DNA of 37,359 nt from Patescibacteria group bacterium. GTDB taxonomy: Bacteria; Patescibacteriota; Patescibacteriia; UBA9934; GWF2-40-263. Both the position numbers and the translations under genes were made by a program. Of this stretch, positions 1 to 31,253 are shown piece after piece (the stretch's first letter is position 1; the number at the start of each line of letters is the position of its first letter). The stretch covers positions 1 through 37,359 of the forward strand of contig JAHJAM010000017.1 of the NCBI GenBank assembly GCA_018814025.1, written 5' to 3'. The notes below the pieces were generated by a model. It was not told where the DNA came from and did no database searches. It saw only the letters and a program-made list of their open reading frames with translations.

Positions 1-132
1 TATGTGGTTCGCCCCGGGTGGACCTACGAGGTCATCAACCTCGACGACCTGACCAAGGCCGTCGACAGGGAGGTCACCGTGATCGATGACCTCAAGAAGA
101 GCAGCAACAGCTACACTGTTCATCCGAGCTAA
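1..132 (+). CDS. C-terminal fragment of an unknown protein (window edge)
   Basis: An open frame runs from base 1 to a TAA at 130-132 and gives 43 residues, starting YVVRPGWTYEVINLDD and ending SYTVHPS. The start lies outside the window. Codon use (GTC, CTC, GAC, AAG, ACC) matches the other genes of the first 1.9 kb and differs from the core genes further on. The stop codon lies inside a perfect 10-bp inverted repeat (114-123 with 132-141). No family is recognised. Confidence 0.6.
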   Translation, partial: YVVRPGWTYEVINLDDLTKAVDREVTVIDDLKKSSNSYTVHPS

Positions 133-141
133 TGAACAGTG
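114..141 (+). other. Hairpin spanning a stop codon
   Basis: CACTGTTCAT (114-123) and ATGAACAGTG (132-141) are perfect reverse complements separated by 8 bases that include most of the TAA stop (130-132) of the upstream gene. No T-run follows, so it is not a typical intrinsic terminator. It is the first of a series of hairpins associated with stop codons in this region. Confidence 0.7.
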
Positions 142-247
142 CGGCTACCCACCAAACGCTCCGGCTTCCACAATATGCCGGGGAAGACCAAGCCCCCTCG
201 CTTGGACTAGTGGATCAATCGCCACGATAAACAAGATTGTTAACATA

Positions 248-312
248 CGCGGTTCGTCCCAGCCACCGCGCAAACAAAAAGCTGTTAGATAGGGAGACGA
301 CTCTTGTCTCCC
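248..312 (+). repeat. Hairpin-linker-hairpin module, copy A
   Basis: Stem CGCGG/CCGCG (248-252, 266-270), a 2-base gap, the linker AACAAAAAGCTGTTAG (273-288), 3 bases, then stem GGGAGAC/GTCTCCC (292-298, 306-312). Copy B at 422-488 has the same order and the same gaps with different stem sequences. Confidence 0.6.
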
Positions 313-313
313 C

Positions 314-343
314 AATCCCAGCGTTCGCAACTTTGGTTGTGGA
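314..343 (+). repeat. AATCCCAGCG hairpin motif, copy 1
   Basis: AATCCCAGCGTTCGCAAC (314-331) is followed by a TTTG loop and GTTGTGGA (336-343), forming an 8-bp stem with two G-T pairs, then ATGATGGACATTG. A second copy lies at 747-796 with a compensatory base-pair change. A more diverged relative is seen near 1924-1942. Confidence 0.55.
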
Positions 344-421
344 TGATGGACATTGGAAACAGCAGTTTCTGAACAGGCAAGGCGAGTTTCGCCGATAGTC
401 TGATCAGAAACTGATTGCATA

Positions 422-488
422 GGCGGTGACAGCGGTCCGCCAGAACAAAACGCTGTTAGCTTCGGAGGACACATTTCTGTGTCCTCCG
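422..488 (+). repeat. Hairpin-linker-hairpin module, copy B
   Basis: Stem GGCGG/CCGCC (422-426, 437-441), a 2-base gap, the linker AACAAAACGCTGTTAG (444-459), 3 bases, then a perfect 11-bp stem (463-473, 478-488) closed by a TTTC tetraloop. The linker matches copy A at 15 of 16 positions while both flanking stems differ. Confidence 0.6.
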
Positions 489-545
489 GTTCTCAGAATT
501 CAGAAAGAGATTTGTGGATTATGAGAACCACAAAAAGGAGGAGTG

Positions 546-716
546 ATGAAGAAGTTGCTTGGCATGATTGGGGGCGTGTTCTATGTTCCCTTCGCCTTGA
601 TTTTCGGAGTCGCGGCCCTGCTGTACGGGCTGGCCCTCCTGTTCCCAGTCGAGCGGCCCGTCCCCCGGCTCCCGCGCTTCATCCAGAAACATATCAACAT
701 CCGCTTTCACCCGTAG
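546..716 (+). CDS. Small membrane protein (56 aa), unknown
   Basis: The ATG at 546 follows an AAAAAGGAGG ribosome site (532-541) and gives MKKLLGMIGGVFYVPFALIF and so on, ending at TAG 714-716. Residues 3-33 are almost entirely hydrophobic, giving one or two membrane-spanning segments. The tail is basic and proline-rich (VERPVPRLPRFIQKH). An in-frame GTG lies directly upstream, but the ATG is better placed. It sits in a run of small genes with strong ribosome sites, and its last stop-codon base is also the first base of the hairpin at 716-743. No family is recognised. Phage-like or mobile-element origin is possible but not shown. Confidence 0.6.
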   Translation: MKKLLGMIGGVFYVPFALIFGVAALLYGLALLFPVERPVPRLPRFIQKHINIRFHP

Positions 717-743
717 GGAACGCGTGCAATTCTCCGCGTTCCC
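716..743 (+). other. Post-gene hairpin, copy 1 of 3
   Basis: GGGAACGCG (716-724) and CGCGTTCCC (735-743) form a perfect 9-bp stem with loop TGCAATTCTC. It starts on the last base of the TAG stop. Near-identical copies are at 1176-1203 and 1895-1922. There is no poly-T tract, which argues for an RNA-processing or stabilising element more than an intrinsic terminator. Confidence 0.65.
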
Positions 744-746
744 TTC

Positions 747-796
747 AATCCCAGCGTTCGCAATCCTGCCTGCCGGTAGGCAAGTTCGATTGTGAA
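747..796 (+). repeat. AATCCCAGCG hairpin motif, copy 2, with loop insertion
   Basis: AATCCCAGCGTTCGCAAT (747-764) pairs through TTCGCAAT with ATTGTGAA (789-796), then ATGATGGACATTG follows as in copy 1. The loop carries 24 bases (765-788) in place of 4, and these contain the near-palindrome TGCCTGCCGGTAGGCA. The closing pair is T-A here and C-G in copy 1. Confidence 0.55.
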
Positions 797-871
797 TGAT
801 GGACATTGAAGATAATCCGCCCAGACAATGGGTGGTTTCGGATATTACAGAAATCTCACAAGGAGGAGAAA

Positions 872-1165
872 ATGCAGTATCTCTGTGTTTACCGACATTG
901 TCGGAAGCGGAAGGAGGATGCCTTTTATGTGTCTTCGGACAACGGTTCCCAGATCTTTTTCTGGAATGCGGAGGCTTTGGCCGGAGTTAGGAAGGTCTCT
1001 GTTCCGAAAGGGCAGGATTTCTTTGTTTTTGAACAAGACGACACAGAGGTTCATATTGTCGTACGGACAATCACCGAAATGGTTGTCCGGAGGGCGATCG
1101 CTGTGGCCCTTTGTTGTTCGGTTAATGAGGTTGATCTGTGTCACACTCCAGATTTGGAGTACTGA
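872..1165 (+). CDS. Hypothetical protein (97 aa)
   Basis: The start at 872 is chosen because AAGGAGGAG lies just upstream (860-868). Longer in-frame starts such as 806 lack a site and would run through the repeat motif. The protein starts MQYLCVYRHCRKRKEDAF and ends VDLCHTPDLEY, with the TGA stop at 1163-1165. It has six cysteines and no signal peptide or membrane segment. The alternation of charged and hydrophobic residues suggests a small soluble alpha/beta domain, which is a weak inference. A 6-bp hairpin (1145-1150/1155-1160) lies 2 bases before the stop and the 28-base hairpin lies 10 bases after it. No family is recognised. Confidence 0.6.
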   Translation: MQYLCVYRHCRKRKEDAFYVSSDNGSQIFFWNAEALAGVRKVSVPKGQDFFVFEQDDTEVHIVVRTITEMVVRRAIAVALCCSVNEVDLCHTPDLEY

Positions 1166-1175
1166 TTACTTTTTC

Positions 1176-1203
1176 GGGAACGCGTGCTTTTCTCCACGTT
1201 CCC
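1176..1203 (+). other. Post-gene hairpin, copy 2 of 3
   Basis: Same as the hairpin at 716-743 except that one base on the 3' arm gives a C-A mismatch (GGGAACG pairs with CGTTCCC). The loop keeps the TGC...TCTC pattern. It ends 3 bases before the AGAAAGGAGGG ribosome site of the next gene. Confidence 0.65.
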
Positions 1204-1220
1204 TTCAGAAAGGAGGGTAA

Positions 1221-1670
1221 ATGGAGCGTTTTGCCAACGTGCTACGTATCGTGTCGAGGTTGGAGATCGATGACACTGACTCGGACGAGAAGGCGCTTTT
1301 GAAGCGTCATCTACAGCACGGCAACATCTCTACGCATCGGGACAAGCTTTACAAGAAGCATCTCAAGATGCTGGAGGAGAAGAAGGCGGTCAGACGACGG
1401 GAATGGGTTCGGACGGTGTTCAAGAAGTGCGCCTCTTGGAGCCTGGCTTTGCTGGTCTTGGTGACCGTGGCCGGGAACCTATACGTGTTCGTCCTGGTCG
1501 GCGATCTGACGCAGGCGGCACCCCCAAGCGTGGCTGAGCCACTGAAGCCGACGGTTCAGGACAGTGCGACGGCCGGTTTGATCCTGAAAAACGAGACCGC
1601 GGTCTGTCCGAACGGCTTCACCGTGGCGATGAATCAGCGTACGGCCTACTGTCTGCTCGACGGTGGTTAG
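1221..1670 (+). CDS. Single-pass membrane protein (149 aa), unknown
   Basis: The start at 1221 follows AGAAAGGAGGG. The protein has a charged N-terminal part of about 70 residues rich in Lys, Arg and Glu (probably helical), one hydrophobic segment at about 73-94 (SLALLVLVTVAGNLYVFVLV), then a tail of about 55 residues with two cysteines (AVCPNG and AYCLL). The positive charges before the segment predict the N-terminus inside and the C-terminal tail outside. The TAG stop (1668-1670) lies inside a hairpin closed by a GAAA tetraloop. No family is recognised. Confidence 0.65.
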   Translation: MERFANVLRIVSRLEIDDTDSDEKALLKRHLQHGNISTHRDKLYKKHLKMLEEKKAVRRREWVRTVFKKCASWSLALLVLVTVAGNLYVFVLVGDLTQAAPPSVAEPLKPTVQDSATAGLILKNETAVCPNGFTVAMNQRTAYCLLDGG

Positions 1671-1682
1671 GAAACTACCACC
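1662..1682 (+). other. GAAA-capped hairpin over a stop codon
   Basis: GGTGGT, a bulged T, and AG (1662-1670) pair with CTACCACC (1675-1682) around a GAAA tetraloop (1671-1674). The TAG stop of the upstream gene forms the top of the 5' arm. The next ribosome site (CGGAGGG) begins right after the stem. Confidence 0.6.
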
Positions 1683-1691
1683 GGAGGGAAC

Positions 1692-1826
1692 ATGGCCACG
1701 ATGTCAAACATGAACGGAGATGGCATTGTAATCGGCGGAATCGGCACGTGGTCACTGCCGAAAATGAAGGGCGCATCGTCGGATCAGACGACAGGAGAAA
1801 ATGCAGGTCCGAAATCTGCAATTTGA
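1692..1826 (+). CDS. Possible small protein (44 aa)
   Basis: The ATG at 1692 follows CGGAGGGAAC and encodes MATMSNMNGDGIVIGGIGTW and on to TGA at 1824-1826. It is glycine- and serine-rich with no recognisable domain. Its support is the ribosome site and its position in the run of small genes. A short TGCAG/CTGCA hairpin (1802-1806/1816-1820) precedes its stop. It could also be a non-functional reading frame. Confidence 0.4.
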   Translation: MATMSNMNGDGIVIGGIGTWSLPKMKGASSDQTTGENAGPKSAI

Positions 1827-1878
1827 TCCTGACGCTGAAGTCCGGCCTGCTCGCCTAATGACCCAAGACGATATTTGA
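1801..1878 (+). CDS. Possible micro-protein (25 aa) overlapping the previous gene
   Basis: The ATG at 1801 has the same GGAGAAAATG start context as the gene at 872, and the frame ends at TGA 1876-1878 (MQVRNLQFDPDAEVRPARLM...). It overlaps the 44-aa frame by 26 bases, which would fit translational coupling. Coding evidence is weak because of its length. Confidence 0.3.
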   Translation: MQVRNLQFDPDAEVRPARLMTQDDI

Positions 1879-1894
1879 AACCTTCCTTGCTTTC

Positions 1895-1922
1895 GGGAAC
1901 GCGTGCTTATCTCCGCGTTCCC
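1895..1922 (+). other. Post-gene hairpin, copy 3 of 3
   Basis: GGGAACGCG (1895-1903) and CGCGTTCCC (1914-1922) with loop TGCTTATCTC. The stem is identical to the copy at 716-743. It is followed by ATCCCCAGAGTTTGCGAG, a diverged form of the motif that follows the first copy. Confidence 0.65.
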
Positions 1923-1942
1923 TGATCCCCAGAGTTTGCGAG

Positions 1943-1987
1943 ACCCCCTCCCGACCTCCCCCTTGGTAAGGGGGAGGAGAACGAGGG
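1943..1987 (+). repeat. GC-rich TTGGTAA palindromic repeat
   Basis: CCTCCCCCTT (1955-1964) pairs perfectly with AAGGGGGAGG (1968-1977) around GGT, with flanking ACCCCCTCCC/GAGGGA. It belongs to the same family as the copies at 2057-2105, 2413-2546 and 2892-3091. It marks the boundary between the small-gene region and the core-style genes. Confidence 0.7.
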
Positions 1988-2017
1988 AATCGCAGGTTCT
2001 GACTGATCATTCAAATA

Positions 2018-2050
2018 AACAAAAAACACCCTTCGGGGTGTTTTTTGTTT
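2018..2050. terminator. Bidirectional intrinsic terminator
   Basis: ACAAAAAACACCC and GGGTGTTTTTTGT form a long stem with a TTCG tetraloop, A-rich on one side and T-rich on the other. It can stop the small-gene transcript from the left. Confidence 0.8.
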
Positions 2051-2056
2051 GAAACG

Positions 2057-2105
2057 ATAACCCCCCCGGCCCCCTCCTTGGTAAGGAGGGGGGGAGACGC
2101 AGGAT
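2057..2105 (+). repeat. GC-rich TTGGTAA palindromic repeat
   Basis: Another family copy, with CCCCCTCCTT and AAGGAGGGGG arms around GGT and the trailing GAGACGCAGGA that recurs after most copies. Confidence 0.7.
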
Positions 2106-2110
2106 TATGG

Positions 2111-2116
2111 TATGAT
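2111..2116 (+). promoter_or_regulatory. -10 element of smr, probably leaderless
   Basis: TATGAT ends 8 bases before the ATG at 2125, so initiation would fall at or next to the start codon. No clear -35 hexamer is seen because the palindromic repeat occupies that place. Confidence 0.45.
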
Positions 2117-2124
2117 TTTTGGAT

Positions 2125-2412
2125 ATGAATAATGAATCATTAATAGTCGGTGCGGAGATGGGCGGGGAAGTGACGCAGATTGATTTGCACGGATCGGGAG
2201 TGGATGAAGCCGTGCGCGAGCTGGATATTTTTATTTCGCAAGAATTGGCTCGGGGCGAGCGGGTGGTAAAGATTGTGCACGGGCGCGGAACCGGCAAGCT
2301 GCGCGAGGCGATTCACGCTCATTTAAAGACTAACAATTTAGTGGATTTTTGGCGGGATAGCATGGAGTTGAATGAGATCGGCGGCGTGACTTATGCAGTA
2401 TTAAGCGAGTAA
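2125..2412 (+). CDS. Stand-alone Smr-domain protein
   Basis: A 95-residue protein made almost only of a Smr domain, the C-terminal nuclease or nucleic-acid-binding module of MutS2. It shows the family's LDLHG motif as IDLHG (residues about 19-23) and the HGRG core as VKIVHGRGTGKLREAI. Single-domain Smr proteins nick or bind branched DNA or RNA; the target here is unknown. The ATG at 2125 is preferred to the TTG at 2119 because a TATGAT -10 lies 8 bases upstream. It is flanked by GC-rich palindromic repeats on both sides and stands alone. Confidence 0.88.
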   Translation: MNNESLIVGAEMGGEVTQIDLHGSGVDEAVRELDIFISQELARGERVVKIVHGRGTGKLREAIHAHLKTNNLVDFWRDSMELNEIGGVTYAVLSE

Positions 2413-2546
2413 CCCCCCGGCCCCCTCCTTGGTAAGGAGGGGGAGAGATGGAACAAGTGATTGGTAAGGAGGGGGAGAGACGCAATTTTTTATTCTCATT
2501 TATATACTCCTCCCCCTTACCAAGGGGGAGGTTGGGAGGGGGTTAA
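2413..2546 (+). repeat. Inverted pair of GC-rich palindromic repeats
   Basis: One full copy plus a partial copy (TTGGTAAGGAGGGGGAGAGA at 2461-2480) read in one direction, and an opposite-direction copy (CCTCCCCCTTACCAAGG and onward) lies at about 2507-2546. The opposing copies can form a large stem-loop. A TATACT (2503-2508) between them could be a -10 for the next gene, and the GGGAGGGGG of the last copy serves as that gene's Shine-Dalgarno-like sequence. Confidence 0.7.
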
Positions 2547-2548
2547 GT

Positions 2549-2947
2549 ATGACCGAGTTATTTAATCAAAAGCTGCAAACTCCTCTTCGTAAGAAGTTGA
2601 GGAAAGATAATCCATCAGCTGAATATTTGCTTTGGATGTATTTAAGAAAGAAGCAACTTGATTTTCGATTCAGAAGACAGTTTGGAATCGGTACTTTTGT
2701 GGTTGATTTTTATTGTCCAAAAGCGAAATTAGTGATTGAGGTTGATGGCGATACTCATTATCAAAAACAAACACCGGATCAATATGATGTCGAGAGACAG
2801 AGGTACATTGAATCGAAAGGTTTAAAAGTATTGCGTTTCACTAATTTAGATGTTTATCGAAATATCGAGGGTGTGATCCAGGTGATACGAGATAACCTCC
2901 CCCCGGCCCCCTCCTTGGTAAGGAGGGGGAGAGACGCTCAGGAATAA
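2549..2947 (+). CDS. DUF559 (Vsr/restriction-like) endonuclease-fold protein
   Basis: A 132-residue protein of the DUF559 family, related to the very-short-patch repair endonuclease fold. Family features seen are ARLLW-like SAEYLLWMYLRKKQ (about 23-36), FRRQFGIGTFVVDFYCP (about 41-57), then LVIEVDGDTHY (about 61-71), in which D52, E64 and D66 fit the PD-(D/E)xK active-site pattern. The domain ends near residue 115. The last residues, LPPAPSLVRRGRDAQE, are encoded by the first palindromic repeat copy of the downstream tandem array, which also supplies the TAA stop. The ribosome site likewise comes from an upstream repeat. Substrate unknown. Confidence 0.82.
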   Translation: MTELFNQKLQTPLRKKLRKDNPSAEYLLWMYLRKKQLDFRFRRQFGIGTFVVDFYCPKAKLVIEVDGDTHYQKQTPDQYDVERQRYIESKGLKVLRFTNLDVYRNIEGVIQVIRDNLPPAPSLVRRGRDAQE

Positions 2948-3091
2948 CCTCCCCCCGGCCCCTCCTTGGTAAGGAGGGGGAGAGACGCTCAGGAATAACC
3001 TCCCCCCGGCCCCCTCCTTGGTAAGGAGGGGGAGAGACGCTCAGGAATAACCTCCCCCCGGCCCCTCCTTGGTAAGGAGGGGGAGAGACGA
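2892..3091 (+). repeat. Four-copy tandem array of the GC-rich palindromic repeat
   Basis: Copies begin at 2892, 2944, 2995 and 3047, each starting ATAACCTCC and containing the CCTCCTTGGTAAGGAGG palindrome followed by GAGACG. Copies 1 and 3 have five C before TCC, and copies 2 and 4 have four, so the array looks like a duplicated two-copy unit of 103 bases. The first copy is read as the end of the DUF559 gene. Confidence 0.85.
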
Positions 3092-3093
3092 GC

Positions 3094-3122
3094 TTGGATA
3101 AACACTTTTTTTAGCGTAAAAT
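3094..3122 (+). promoter_or_regulatory. Promoter of the HD-domain gene (leaderless)
   Basis: TTGGAT (3094-3099), 17 bases, TAAAAT (3117-3122), then 9 bases to the ATG at 3132. Initiation at the usual distance would place the transcript start at the start codon. Confidence 0.55.
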
Positions 3123-3131
3123 GGTAGCAAT

Positions 3132-4361
3132 ATGTGGAGAATGGAAACTTACAAAAAAGAGCGGGACAGCGAGTTTTTGGATGGGCTCATGGAGCGGATC
3201 GAAATGAACCAGCATCTTTGGCAAAAAGCCGAAGCGCTTTTGTCCGGGGTAGCCAAGCAGGAGCCTTTGTTCGCGGATGCTTTGCGCACGCCGCAGTCGC
3301 CGCACTATCATGCCGAGGGGCCGACCTTGCAGCACCACTTGCGATTGATGTTGATGGTTTTGTACGCGGTGGCGGAAGGCAAGTTATCGTTACTGGATAT
3401 TGAAGAATTCCGCCGAATGAAGGAATACGAAGGAGAGATTAAGGAATTGGAGCAAACGATTCGCGAGTCCGCGGCTTTGTTTGAAGCTTTTATCTTGTGC
3501 CACGACGCGGCCAAATGGGCGAGCGTGTTTTTTTCCGCGCCCAAAGGCAGCCGCGGCGAGCAATTGGGTTTTGATATGGACTTGATGTTTAAGTGGGATG
3601 AATTCGGGGCCAGTGAGCGGGCCAAAGCAAGGGAAAAGTATTTATTGTTGTTTGATGATTTTGTGCGCGAGCATCCGGGCGAGAATGAAGAGTCGATTGA
3701 AGCGCAGTTTTATCTTTACTACGGAATCCGCGTGCATTATCCAGGCCATGAACGAGCGATTCATACGCCGGTGTATCGGCATTTGTTGGAGCGAGTCGGG
3801 GTGGCCCACGGTTTAAGCGAGCAAGACAGAGTTTTGCTGGAAGATTTAATCGGCCATCATCAAATCGGCGAGCAGTTCAATGAGGTACGGCCGGAAGGCA
3901 TCCGCAAGCTGATGCATTTCGCGCAGGCGCGCGGCTATGACAGCGACGATTTCATCGACCGGCTGCAAGCTGGCGTATTCTTGGATATGGTCAGCGCTTC
4001 CAAGCGCTTGGCGCCGCACGGCACTTGGCGCGATCCATCGGTTTTGATCAATTTTTTGCGTTCGGAACACGAGTATCAGCCCGGACGCCGGCAAGAGAAA
4101 CTGCTGAGGCGCGAAGCAGAAGCCAAGCGAGAGCAAAATCGGCTGTTTCGAGAAGTGGGCCTGGACGGCGTGGCTTTGATGGAATTGTTTGAGATGGATC
4201 CGGGTCCGCAATTCGGCAAAGTGATGCGCAAAGTACACAATGCGATTGCGGGCAAAGAAGAAATACCGGAGTGGCCCAATCAAAAAGTCGCTAATGAGAT
4301 GAAAACTCGCGTGGCTCAATATTATTCAAGAGCGTTTGATCAGGGAGGGGATGGAGATTAG
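3132..4361 (+). CDS. HD-domain protein with a CCA-enzyme-like C-terminus
   Basis: A 409-residue soluble protein. An HD-type metal-binding pattern is visible: H60 in YHAEGPTLQHH, then CHDAAK with H124-D125, and LIGHHQIGEQF with H242-H243. Near the C-terminus LMELFEMDPGPQFGKVMRKV (about 349-368) resembles the conserved C-terminal helix region of class II CCA-adding enzymes and poly(A) polymerases, but there is no nucleotidyltransferase head domain. A complete cca gene lies at 31911-33278. Metal-dependent phosphohydrolase activity is likely from the HD motif; the substrate is unknown, with RNA a guess from the C-terminus. ruvA follows after 3 bases and is probably cotranscribed. Confidence 0.72.
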   Translation: MWRMETYKKERDSEFLDGLMERIEMNQHLWQKAEALLSGVAKQEPLFADALRTPQSPHYHAEGPTLQHHLRLMLMVLYAVAEGKLSLLDIEEFRRMKEYEGEIKELEQTIRESAALFEAFILCHDAAKWASVFFSAPKGSRGEQLGFDMDLMFKWDEFGASERAKAREKYLLLFDDFVREHPGENEESIEAQFYLYYGIRVHYPGHERAIHTPVYRHLLERVGVAHGLSEQDRVLLEDLIGHHQIGEQFNEVRPEGIRKLMHFAQARGYDSDDFIDRLQAGVFLDMVSASKRLAPHGTWRDPSVLINFLRSEHEYQPGRRQEKLLRREAEAKREQNRLFREVGLDGVALMELFEMDPGPQFGKVMRKVHNAIAGKEEIPEWPNQKVANEMKTRVAQYYSRAFDQGGDGD

Positions 4362-4364
4362 ATT

Positions 4365-4910
4365 ATGATGATATTACTTCGCGGCACAGTGCATTATCGG
4401 GGGAAGAATTTTGTGATTGTGGAGCAGGGAGGGATGGGACACCGAATCGTTTTGCCCGAGGATGCGGTCAGGGATTTCGACGGGGAAGTGGTATTTTATG
4501 TGCATGAAGCCATTCGGGAGAGCGAGCGGGAATTTTTCGGCTTTCGTACCATTGGCGACTTGGAAATGTTTTGGAAATTAATCGGCATTTCCGGCGTGGG
4601 GCCGCGCGTGGGCCAGAAAATTATATATTCCGGTTCCGGGGATGAGATTCGCATGAAAATCATGAGCGGGGACTTGGTATTTTTAACCAGCATCCCGGGC
4701 ATCGGCAATAAAACCGCGCAAAAAATTATTCTGGAGCTGAAAGGCGCGTTGGCGGAGGAGCCGGCAGCGGTCAATTATGACCAGGACGCGTTCGAAGCCT
4801 TGCTGGGATTAGGGTATACTAAAAAACAAGCACAAGAGGCTTTGGTGGAAACTGAAGCGGAAAATACGGATGATCGCATCAGGCAAGCACTCAAATATTT
4901 AGCAAAATAA
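4365..4910 (+). CDS. ruvA: Holliday junction branch migration protein RuvA
   Basis: RuvA binds four-way DNA junctions as a tetramer and loads the RuvB motor during recombination and repair. The 181-residue sequence shows the N-terminal OB fold (MILLRGTVHYRGKNFVIVEQ), two helix-hairpin-helix motifs (GISGVGPRVGQKI and IPGIGNKTAQKIILELK) and a C-terminal domain III (ALLGLGYTKKQAQEAL) joined by a short linker. It is somewhat shorter than the roughly 200-residue enterobacterial protein. ATG codons at 4365 and 4368 are both possible starts. It is coupled to the HD-domain gene just upstream; ruvB and ruvC are not in the window. Confidence 0.93.
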   Translation: MMILLRGTVHYRGKNFVIVEQGGMGHRIVLPEDAVRDFDGEVVFYVHEAIRESEREFFGFRTIGDLEMFWKLIGISGVGPRVGQKIIYSGSGDEIRMKIMSGDLVFLTSIPGIGNKTAQKIILELKGALAEEPAAVNYDQDAFEALLGLGYTKKQAQEALVETEAENTDDRIRQALKYLAK

Positions 4911-24893: not shown

Positions 24894-27755
24894 ATGCAAG
24901 AGAAAATTTCCGTGCGCGGAGCTCGTGTTCATAATCTCAAGAACCTGTCCGTGGACATTCCCAAGAATCAATTAGTGGTTATTACCGGCTTGTCCGGCTC
25001 CGGGAAATCATCTCTGGCTTTTGACACAATTTACGCGGAGGGCCAGCGGCGCTACATGGAATCGCTTTCCAGCTACGCGCGGCAGTTTTTGGAATTGCAG
25101 GACAAGCCGGACGTGGATGAAATTTTGGGCTTGTCGCCGACCATTGCCATTGATCAAAAATCATCTTCCCATAACCCGCGCTCAACCGTGGGCACGGTGA
25201 CGGAGATTTATGATTTCATGCGCGTTTTGTTCGCGCGGGCCGGCGTGCCGCATTGTCCCAAATGCGGAGACAAAGTGAGCGAGCAGACTTTGAAACAAAT
25301 TGTCGACCAAGTTAAGGAACTGATGAACGGCACGCCCCTGCAGCTTTTCGCTCCGGTGATCAAGGAACAGAAAGGCGAACACAAGCTGGCTTTGGTCGGG
25401 GCCATGAACGCGGGTTTTTCCCGGGTGCGTTTCGATGGTTTTTTGATGGATCTGGATGAGGCCGTGGCCATGCGCCGAGACAAGAAGAAAGATCACACAG
25501 TTGAAGTTTTGATTGCGCAATTTGAGCCCGGGGTGATCTATGATCCCAAACAAGTCGAGGATTTGGTGAAAAAGACTTTGGATTATGGCAACGGCTTCAT
25601 GCTGCTGGTGGATGATGACACCGGCGATGAAACTTTGTTTTCCCAAAGTTTCACTTGTTCGCGCTGCGGCATAAATTTACCCCAGCCGGAGCCGCGCTTG
25701 TTTTCATTTAATTCGCCGTTTGGCGCGTGTCCGGAGTGTACCGGATTGGGCATGAAGCTCGTGTTGGAACCGGATTTGGTCATTCCCAATAAACGTTTAA
25801 CTTTCGCCGAAGGCGCGGTGCGTCCGTGGACGAGAATCGCGGGCAATCAAACCAGTTATTTGCGCATGCTGGAAATCGTGGGCAAGAAACACAAGTTTTC
25901 GATCAATGTGCCGGTGGAAAAAATTCCCAAAACCAAATTGGATTTGGTTTTGTACGGCACGGGCGAGCAAGAATATAATTTTGACGGGCAATTAGTAATG
26001 TTTCCCGGGATTTTGACGCAGCTGGAACAAAAGTATAAGGAAACGGATTCGGATTACGTGCGCCACGAATTGGAAGGCTATATGCGAACCATGATTTGTC
26101 CGGCCTGCGAAGGCAAACGTTTGCGGCCGGAAGTTCTGGCCATTACGATTGCGGATAAATCCATCTCCGATTTGGTCAATTTGCCGATTGAAGATGTCTA
26201 CGAATTGTTTGCAGATTTCGTGCCCAGCCGGAAATCGAAAAAGAAGATCGAAAATCAAAACTTGCTCAACGGCGCGCTTTCCGACGATCAACGCTTGGTG
26301 GTGGAACGGGTGGCCAAAGAAGTGCTGGCTCGATTGTCTCATTTGATCGACGTGGGCTTGGGTTATTTGACTTTGGATCGCAGTGCCATGACTTTGTCAG
26401 GCGGCGAGGCGCAGCGCGTACGCTTGGCCACTCAGCTGGGATCATCGCTTTCCGGGGTGATTTATATTTTAGATGAGCCTTCGATCGGTTTGCATCCGAA
26501 AGATAATGATCACTTGATTAAGATTATTAAGCAGCTGCAGGCTTTGGGAAATTCAGTTCTGGTGGTGGAACATGATGCGGCTATGATTGAAGCCGCGGAC
26601 TACGTTTTCGACGTGGGTCCGGGGGCGGGCGAATACGGGGGCGAAATCGTGGCGGAGGGCACGCCGGCGCAAATCAAGAAAAATCCGGAGTCGCTGACCG
26701 GTTTGTACATGTCCGGCAAGAAAGAAATTCCGGTGCCGAAAAAATACCGCAAAGGCAGCGGCCAAAGCATCTCGATTCAAGGGGCCAAAGCTTTCAATTT
26801 GCGCGACATTGATGTGGAGATTCCTTTGGCCAAACTGGTTTGCGTAACCGGAGTTTCCGGATCCGGCAAATCCACTTTGATTTTGGATATTTTAGGCAAC
26901 ATGCTGTCCAAGCATTTTTATCGAGCGAAAACTTATCCGGGCGAGCACAAAGCCATTAAGGGAATCAGCAATATCGATAAGGTGGTAGCGGTTGACCAAT
27001 CGCCGATCGGGCGTACGCCGCGATCCAATCCAGCCACTTACACGGGCGTGTTTACGGCGATTCGCGATTTGTTTACGGCCGTGCCGGAAGCGAAGATGCG
27101 CAATTTCGACGCGGGCAAGTTTTCTTTCAACGTCAAAGGCGGCGGCCGGTGCGAAGCTTGCGCGGGCGAGGGCCTGCGCCGAATTGAAATGCAATTTTTG
27201 CCGGATGTTTACGTGGAATGTTCCGAGTGCAAAGGCACGCGCTACAATCAGGAAGTTTTGGAAATTCATTATAAAGGCAAGAGCGTATCAGACGTCTTGA
27301 ATATGACCGTGGAGGAAGCGCGTCGTTTTTTTGCGGATCAGCAAGCGATTTTCGACAAGTTGAATATTCTGCACGAAGTGGGCTTGGGCTATATTCGTTT
27401 GGGGCAGTCAGCCACGACTTTGTCCGGCGGCGAGGCCCAGCGCGTGAAGTTGGCCACGGAATTGTCGCGGCGATCAACCGGTCGGACGTTGTACATTTTG
27501 GATGAGCCGACCACGGGTTTGCACTTTGAGGATATCAAGCGCTTGCTGGGCGTGCTGAATCGGTTGGTGGATAAAGGGAATACCGTGGTGATCATTGAAC
27601 ATAATTTGGATGTGATTAAAGGTGCGGACTGGGTGATTGATATGGGACCGGAAGGCGGAATCAAAGGCGGTTTGGTGGTGGCCGAGGGAACGCCTAAGGA
27701 AATTGTCAAAAATAAAGACAGCGTGACCGGCAAGTATCTCAAAGCAATTTTGTAA
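24894..27755 (+). CDS. uvrA: Excinuclease ABC subunit A
   Basis: UvrA recognises DNA damage for nucleotide excision repair. The 953 residues carry two ABC ATPase modules: Walker A at GLSGSGKSS (about 32-40) and GVSGSGKST, signature LSGGEAQRVRLA and LSGGEAQRVKLA, and Walker B YILDEPSIGLHP and YILDEPTTGLHF. Zinc-binding cysteine pairs occur in CPKCG, CSRCG/CPEC, CPAC and CEAC/CSEC. The start at 24894 gives the usual MQEKISVRGARVHNLKN; the upstream frame has no family match. A TATATT -10 lies 18 bases before it. The gene is complete with its own terminator; uvrB and uvrC are not in view. Confidence 0.97.
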   Translation: MQEKISVRGARVHNLKNLSVDIPKNQLVVITGLSGSGKSSLAFDTIYAEGQRRYMESLSSYARQFLELQDKPDVDEILGLSPTIAIDQKSSSHNPRSTVGTVTEIYDFMRVLFARAGVPHCPKCGDKVSEQTLKQIVDQVKELMNGTPLQLFAPVIKEQKGEHKLALVGAMNAGFSRVRFDGFLMDLDEAVAMRRDKKKDHTVEVLIAQFEPGVIYDPKQVEDLVKKTLDYGNGFMLLVDDDTGDETLFSQSFTCSRCGINLPQPEPRLFSFNSPFGACPECTGLGMKLVLEPDLVIPNKRLTFAEGAVRPWTRIAGNQTSYLRMLEIVGKKHKFSINVPVEKIPKTKLDLVLYGTGEQEYNFDGQLVMFPGILTQLEQKYKETDSDYVRHELEGYMRTMICPACEGKRLRPEVLAITIADKSISDLVNLPIEDVYELFADFVPSRKSKKKIENQNLLNGALSDDQRLVVERVAKEVLARLSHLIDVGLGYLTLDRSAMTLSGGEAQRVRLATQLGSSLSGVIYILDEPSIGLHPKDNDHLIKIIKQLQALGNSVLVVEHDAAMIEAADYVFDVGPGAGEYGGEIVAEGTPAQIKKNPESLTGLYMSGKKEIPVPKKYRKGSGQSISIQGAKAFNLRDIDVEIPLAKLVCVTGVSGSGKSTLILDILGNMLSKHFYRAKTYPGEHKAIKGISNIDKVVAVDQSPIGRTPRSNPATYTGVFTAIRDLFTAVPEAKMRNFDAGKFSFNVKGGGRCEACAGEGLRRIEMQFLPDVYVECSECKGTRYNQEVLEIHYKGKSVSDVLNMTVEEARRFFADQQAIFDKLNILHEVGLGYIRLGQSATTLSGGEAQRVKLATELSRRSTGRTLYILDEPTTGLHFEDIKRLLGVLNRLVDKGNTVVIIEHNLDVIKGADWVIDMGPEGGIKGGLVVAEGTPKEIVKNKDSVTGKYLKAIL

Positions 27756-31135: not shown

Positions 31136-31253
31136 AGGTTATGGAAATTATAATGGAAAAATCGGAAACTTGATAGGGTTTTTTACCTAAAAAACAGCTT
31201 TTTGTCAACTCTCTGGCTGGCAAACGGAGATTCTGGCTCGCGCCGGGCAGGCA

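Follow-up and report, generated by a model that had tools for sequence, protein, structure and literature searches.

Two copies of a short structured unit, at positions 248-312 and 422-488 of the + strand, lie within a densely folded stretch that runs up to the start of a small gene, and selection on the RNA fold is likely. The window analysed, the whole stretch of 37,359 nucleotides, is one complete contig of a 978-kb genome in 62 contigs. In the preferred reading, for which confidence is about evenly balanced, each copy is a pseudoknot-hairpin unit, duplicated inside a lineage-specific, cis-acting structured leader of the gene that begins at 546.

The duplicated unit

The order and spacing of stem, linker and stem in the two copies are as the first-pass annotation had placed them, and all parts are on the + strand. 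Copy 1 opens with a hairpin, P1, formed by CGCGGT/ACCGCG (248-253/265-270), and its loop (254-264) holds CAGC at 260-263. The linker AACAAAAAGCTGTTAG (273-288), preceded by CA and followed by ATA, consists of an A-rich run and then GCTG (281-284). A second hairpin, H2, closes the copy with 9 bp (292-300/304-312), a CTC loop and no U tract on its 3' side. In copy 2, P1 is GGCGG/CCGCC (422-426/437-441) with GACAGCG (428-434) in the loop at 427-436. The linker AACAAAACGCTGTTAG (444-459) stands between AG and CTT and contains CGCTGTT (451-457), and H2 has 11 bp (463-473/478-488), a TTTC loop and CCTCC in its 3' arm. Both linkers are flanked by a stem of 5-6 bp on the 5' side and one of 9-11 bp on the 3' side. 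Their spacing is 171 nt, and other hairpins lie in between. Folded as separate segments, 248-316 and 420-494 have z scores of -2.8 and -4.6. Module folding energy has no + strand preference, the values for the + and - strands being about equal.

The linkers agree at 15 of 16 positions, as had been noticed from the sequence, and this is the sole 15/16 direct repeat within 133-545. Dinucleotide shuffles of that region contain no such repeat (0 of 400). Both stems had been described as differing in sequence between copies. Some pairs have changed, but a pair-by-pair comparison shows most to be identical, and 'divergent stems' overstates the difference. For example, the 5' flank and arm, CATA(C/G)GCGGT, match at 9 of 10 positions. 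In P1, four of the five shared pairs are the same and the fifth flips from C-G in copy 1 to G-C in copy 2; copy 1 also has one additional closing T-A pair. In H2, seven pairs are common to both copies, and the changes are one double change (G-C to C-G), two paired one-bp indels that give copy 2 its 2 extra bp, and one G-U to A-U change. In all, the copies differ by two double-sided substitutions, by three indels that are each paired and by a single G-U/A-U change, and none of these breaks a pair. Because all of the differences keep pairing, the comparison supports a duplication with selection for folding, in which the two copies would descend from one unit whose fold was kept. A chance origin of the unit was considered and rejected on the linker shuffles, the fold z scores, the tail of the genome-window distribution and the pairing-preserving differences.

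Probable pseudoknot formation

The linker had been described as single-stranded, which is doubtful, as pairing is possible between its core GCTG(TT) and the P1 loop. This core probably supplies the 3' strand of the helix of an H-type pseudoknot with an A-rich loop, and a role as a pseudoknot strand would be the simplest explanation for the conservation of the linker. In copy 2, linker CGCTGTT (451-457) is complementary to loop GACAGCG (428-434) and gives a predicted helix S2 of 7 bp. The geometry of this model is an S1 of 5 bp, an L1 of 1 nt, an L2 of 2 nt and an A-rich L3 of 9 nt, AGAACAAAA; nested folding of copy 2 favours S2 over P1. In copy 1, GCTG (281-284) can pair with CAGC in the loop (260-263), for an S2 of 4 bp. 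Among 50,000 shuffled loops, 309 (0.6%) scored at least as well as copy 2 in loop/linker pairing; for copy 1, 12% of shuffled loops did so. Joint occurrence of CAGC in the copy 1 loop and ACAGC in the copy 2 loop was seen in 31 of 200,000 joint shuffles. As a model the pseudoknot is well supported in copy 2; for copy 1 the case is weak when taken alone and suggestive together with copy 2. From these comparisons we infer that the unit folds as a pseudoknot.

The proposed structured leader

The two-copy module proposed earlier is present in both copies, but it is no free unit. It belongs to a larger hairpin-dense stretch of at least 400 nt on the + strand, at ~109-530, nearly all of which is in hairpins. 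The fold of 100-560 has an energy of -186.6 kcal/mol, with z scores of -9.3 on the + strand and -6.5 on the - strand. After GC correction, 400-nt + strand windows starting at 138-251 were matched or exceeded by 13-16 of 3901 genome windows sampled from a set of 6596, many of which hold palindromic repeats. The proposal of selection on an RNA fold is supported by this position in the extreme tail, by the z score of the leader (-9.3) and by the pairing-preserving differences between copies.

The stretch begins with a hairpin that, in the fold of the region, spans the stop codon of the upstream ORF (109-146, +). The contig opens inside that ORF, which ends at 132, and no extension of the contig upstream was found via end overlaps. 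Two structures separate the modules on the + strand, element e1 at 313-355, whose long helix CAATCCCAGCGTTCGCAA...TTGTGGATGATGGACATTG is interrupted, and at 363-413 a long hairpin. A further hairpin, GGTTCTCA/TGAGAACC (488-529, +), stands directly before the Shine-Dalgarno-like GGAGGAG (537-543, +) that precedes the ATG at 546. The leader of the following gene holds a second copy of e1, called e2 (746-808, +), which has ~20 extra nt that contain a palindrome, CCTGCCTGCCGGTAGGCA, inside the terminal loop. In these two consecutive leaders, e1 and e2 share 18-nt and 13-nt nearly invariant strands of a single long interrupted helix. The stability of e1 is -15.8 kcal/mol on the + strand against -6.3 on the - strand, and that of the hairpin at 488-530 is -20.2 against -11.0 kcal/mol; the strand bias of these two helices fits an RNA made from the coding strand. 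Neither a promoter nor a U-tract terminator was recognised on the + strand of the leader, and the sequences 3' of H2, CAATCC in copy 1 and GTTCTC in copy 2, do not fit an intrinsic terminator. Palindromes similar to the one in e2 are also found in other genomes of the phylum.

Other small structures occur nearby. Near-identical hairpins of the form GGGAACGCG..CGCGTTCCC are found three times on the + strand, at 716-743, 1176-1203 and 1895-1922, and the first two directly follow ORFs whose ends are at 716 and 1165. A search of the genome that allowed up to 3 mismatches found no others of this kind. They are possibly sites of RNA processing or 3'-end protection. A palindromic repeat, CCCCCTCCTTGGTAAGGAGGGGG, is dispersed over 1943-3090 of the window and over many contigs, and is arranged head-to-tail at ~2895-3086. 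As for tmRNA, there is no Rfam match in the window and ARAGORN found none in ~97% of the genome. Its absence at a stated completeness of 98.85% could mean that the tmRNA is divergent or that it falls in a gap of the assembly.

Gene context and proposed function

The ORF downstream of the leader (546-716, +) encodes a hydrophobic protein of 56 aa (MKKLLGMIGGVFYVPFALIFGVAALLYGLALLF...), and it is followed by ORFs of 97 and 149 aa. The ORFs at 546, 872 and 1221 had no convincing family match or relative in Pfam, PADLOC, PHROGs and protein searches, and no relatives of the neighbouring proteins were found in viral contigs, phages or order-level genomes. Judged by these searches, the genes adjoining the leader are ORFans. 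Further downstream, the ORF at 2549 carries a DUF559, endonuclease-like domain.

In the preferred reading, ~109-530 would be transcribed and would form a folded + strand leader, itself not translated, that separates two small ORFan genes. Each unit within it would consist of P1, a P1 loop paired with the GCTGTT core of the linker, an A-rich loop that crosses P1, and then a strong hairpin. Such a leader may protect, punctuate or regulate the message of the 56-aa membrane-protein-like gene, by way of RNA stability, RNA processing, or control of the Shine-Dalgarno sequence and translation at 546. The 3' arm of H2 in copy 2 contains CCTCC, complementary to GGAGG of the Shine-Dalgarno sequence, and on this complementarity one might speculate that opening of H2 could hide the ribosome-binding site. 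A direct switch is not apparent, since the modules end ~50 nt (copy 2) and ~225 nt (copy 1) upstream of the Shine-Dalgarno sequence. A cis role is favoured by the way the leader runs into the Shine-Dalgarno sequence and ATG, and a leader function by the presence of the e element before two consecutive genes.

Search for relatives

The statement that no named RNA family has this pattern agrees with a search of the Rfam 15 covariance models, in which 133-545 had no match at gathering score and none that was credible when the threshold was relaxed to E<=10. Covariance models were made of the module (R1) and of the e element (R2). There is no third copy of the module in the genome, and e elements are likewise absent elsewhere in it. 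Two matches located elsewhere, a weak one to the covariance model (25185-25254, -) and one to the pattern (31193-31219, -), score near chance and were dropped. Comparison of the DNA of 133-560 with 43 genomes of the family gave short chance matches only. In 381 class and 380 phylum genomes, R1 and pattern searches found no credible relative. The one outside match of R1, in genome G105, lies inside a 601-aa ORF, lacks H2 and was judged to be chance. R2 had four outside matches, all weak, three of which rest on a CCTGCCTGCCGG-like palindrome. Linker patterns combined with a structure filter were run over the viral_contigs and genome_contigs collections, and none of the matches listed has P1, pseudoknot and H2 together. 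No relatives of the module were found in phages or in plasmids; the plasmids have only the palindromic repeat at 1943-1979 in common with the window.

The first-pass annotation had called for a covariance search of this kind and had named a lack of further copies anywhere as the result that would count against it. No copies were found within the reach of these searches, and selection on the fold is still supported by the evidence given above. Because of this result the status of the unit as a family is unproven, and because homologues are absent from all collections searched, covariation rests on two copies. The unit is probably lineage-specific, although searches of this reach do not prove that relatives are absent.

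Alternative explanations

The preQ1-I and SAM-II riboswitches are small H-type pseudoknots found in leaders, in which an A-rich strand follows the first stem. The unit, a predicted small H-type pseudoknot with an A-rich strand after P1, also in a leader, resembles them, and its compact pseudoknot, A-rich tail, nearly invariant linker and occurrence twice in one leader would suit a tandem metabolite riboswitch with an aptamer of that architecture. However, no Rfam riboswitch model matches it even at E<=10, no expression platform adjoins the modules, and neither a metabolic gene nor one related to those of preQ1-I and SAM-II lies downstream. The loop length and S2 (4 versus 7 bp) also vary between copies, which is unusual for a ligand pocket, and a riboswitch is very improbable here. 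The preQ1 riboswitches have been reviewed (PMC11625349). Type III antitoxins likewise place repeats of an H-type pseudoknot before a small gene, an arrangement predicted in the present case. Their repeats (ToxI, CptI and TenpI) are contiguous, 36-45 nt long, and lie upstream of an endoribonuclease with the ToxN fold; CptI has two repeats, and its pseudoknot has a one-base L1 and a long loop (PMC4627078), much as predicted for copy 2. On this comparison the leader would serve as antitoxin-like RNA and the small downstream gene would encode the toxin, in a toxin-antitoxin locus resembling type III. The units differ from such repeats in being spaced 171 nt apart with hairpins between them, and in that each is followed by a separate hairpin. 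As to the H-type pseudoknot by which type III repeats are recognised, the helix measures 7 bp in copy 2 and 4 bp in copy 1. The ToxI covariance model has no match at E<=10, and the downstream ORFs (56, 97 and 149 aa) match no ToxN, CptN, TenpN or other PADLOC model; a genome search with PF13958 gave no match, but this is no proof, its control being silent too. An antitoxin is more improbable still than a riboswitch. Both readings fail their defining tests on the Rfam, downstream-gene and repeat-architecture results.

Two further explanations deal with the stretch as a whole. It might act as DNA, its hairpins being palindromes active in single strands or REP-like debris of mobile elements, duplicated locally and without RNA function. 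Palindromic repeats such as the CCCCCTCCTTGGTAAGGAGGGGG family are common in the genome, the two strands of the modules fold about equally well, and the contig ends at base 1. On the other side, neither the modules nor the e elements have copies elsewhere in the genome, neighbouring helices have a G-U-dependent strand bias, and among the ORFs of 1-4900 none was recognised as a transposase or recombinase; this explanation is improbable. The ~400-nt region might otherwise be a stable trans-acting or scaffold RNA of its own, to which the neighbouring ORFs are incidental. ROOL, GOLLD and OLE are large orphan structured noncoding RNAs of bacteria and phages, with functions that are unknown or partly known. 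The leader is also long and highly folded, but it has no Rfam match, is known from one genome only and leads directly into an ORF. In favour of a discrete RNA are the near-complete organisation of 109-530 into hairpins, a GC-corrected stability above nearly all sampled genome windows, and a length beyond that of usual leaders. The region nevertheless runs into the Shine-Dalgarno sequence and ORF, with no promoter or terminator recognised around it, and the recurrence of one of its elements before the next gene suggests a leader. A discrete RNA is rather unlikely.

Implications

General importance is limited for now because the proposed cis-acting leader is known from a single genome. It is unlikely, if conceivable, that it represents a new class of large structured RNA, in which duplicated pseudoknot-hairpin domains and a second repeated helix govern a cluster of small ORFans in a lineage that has been little studied. 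If real, the leader would be a structured RNA with a regulatory role, not represented in Rfam, from a lineage with small genomes, and its internal duplication would provide natural evidence for a fold that has no homologues.
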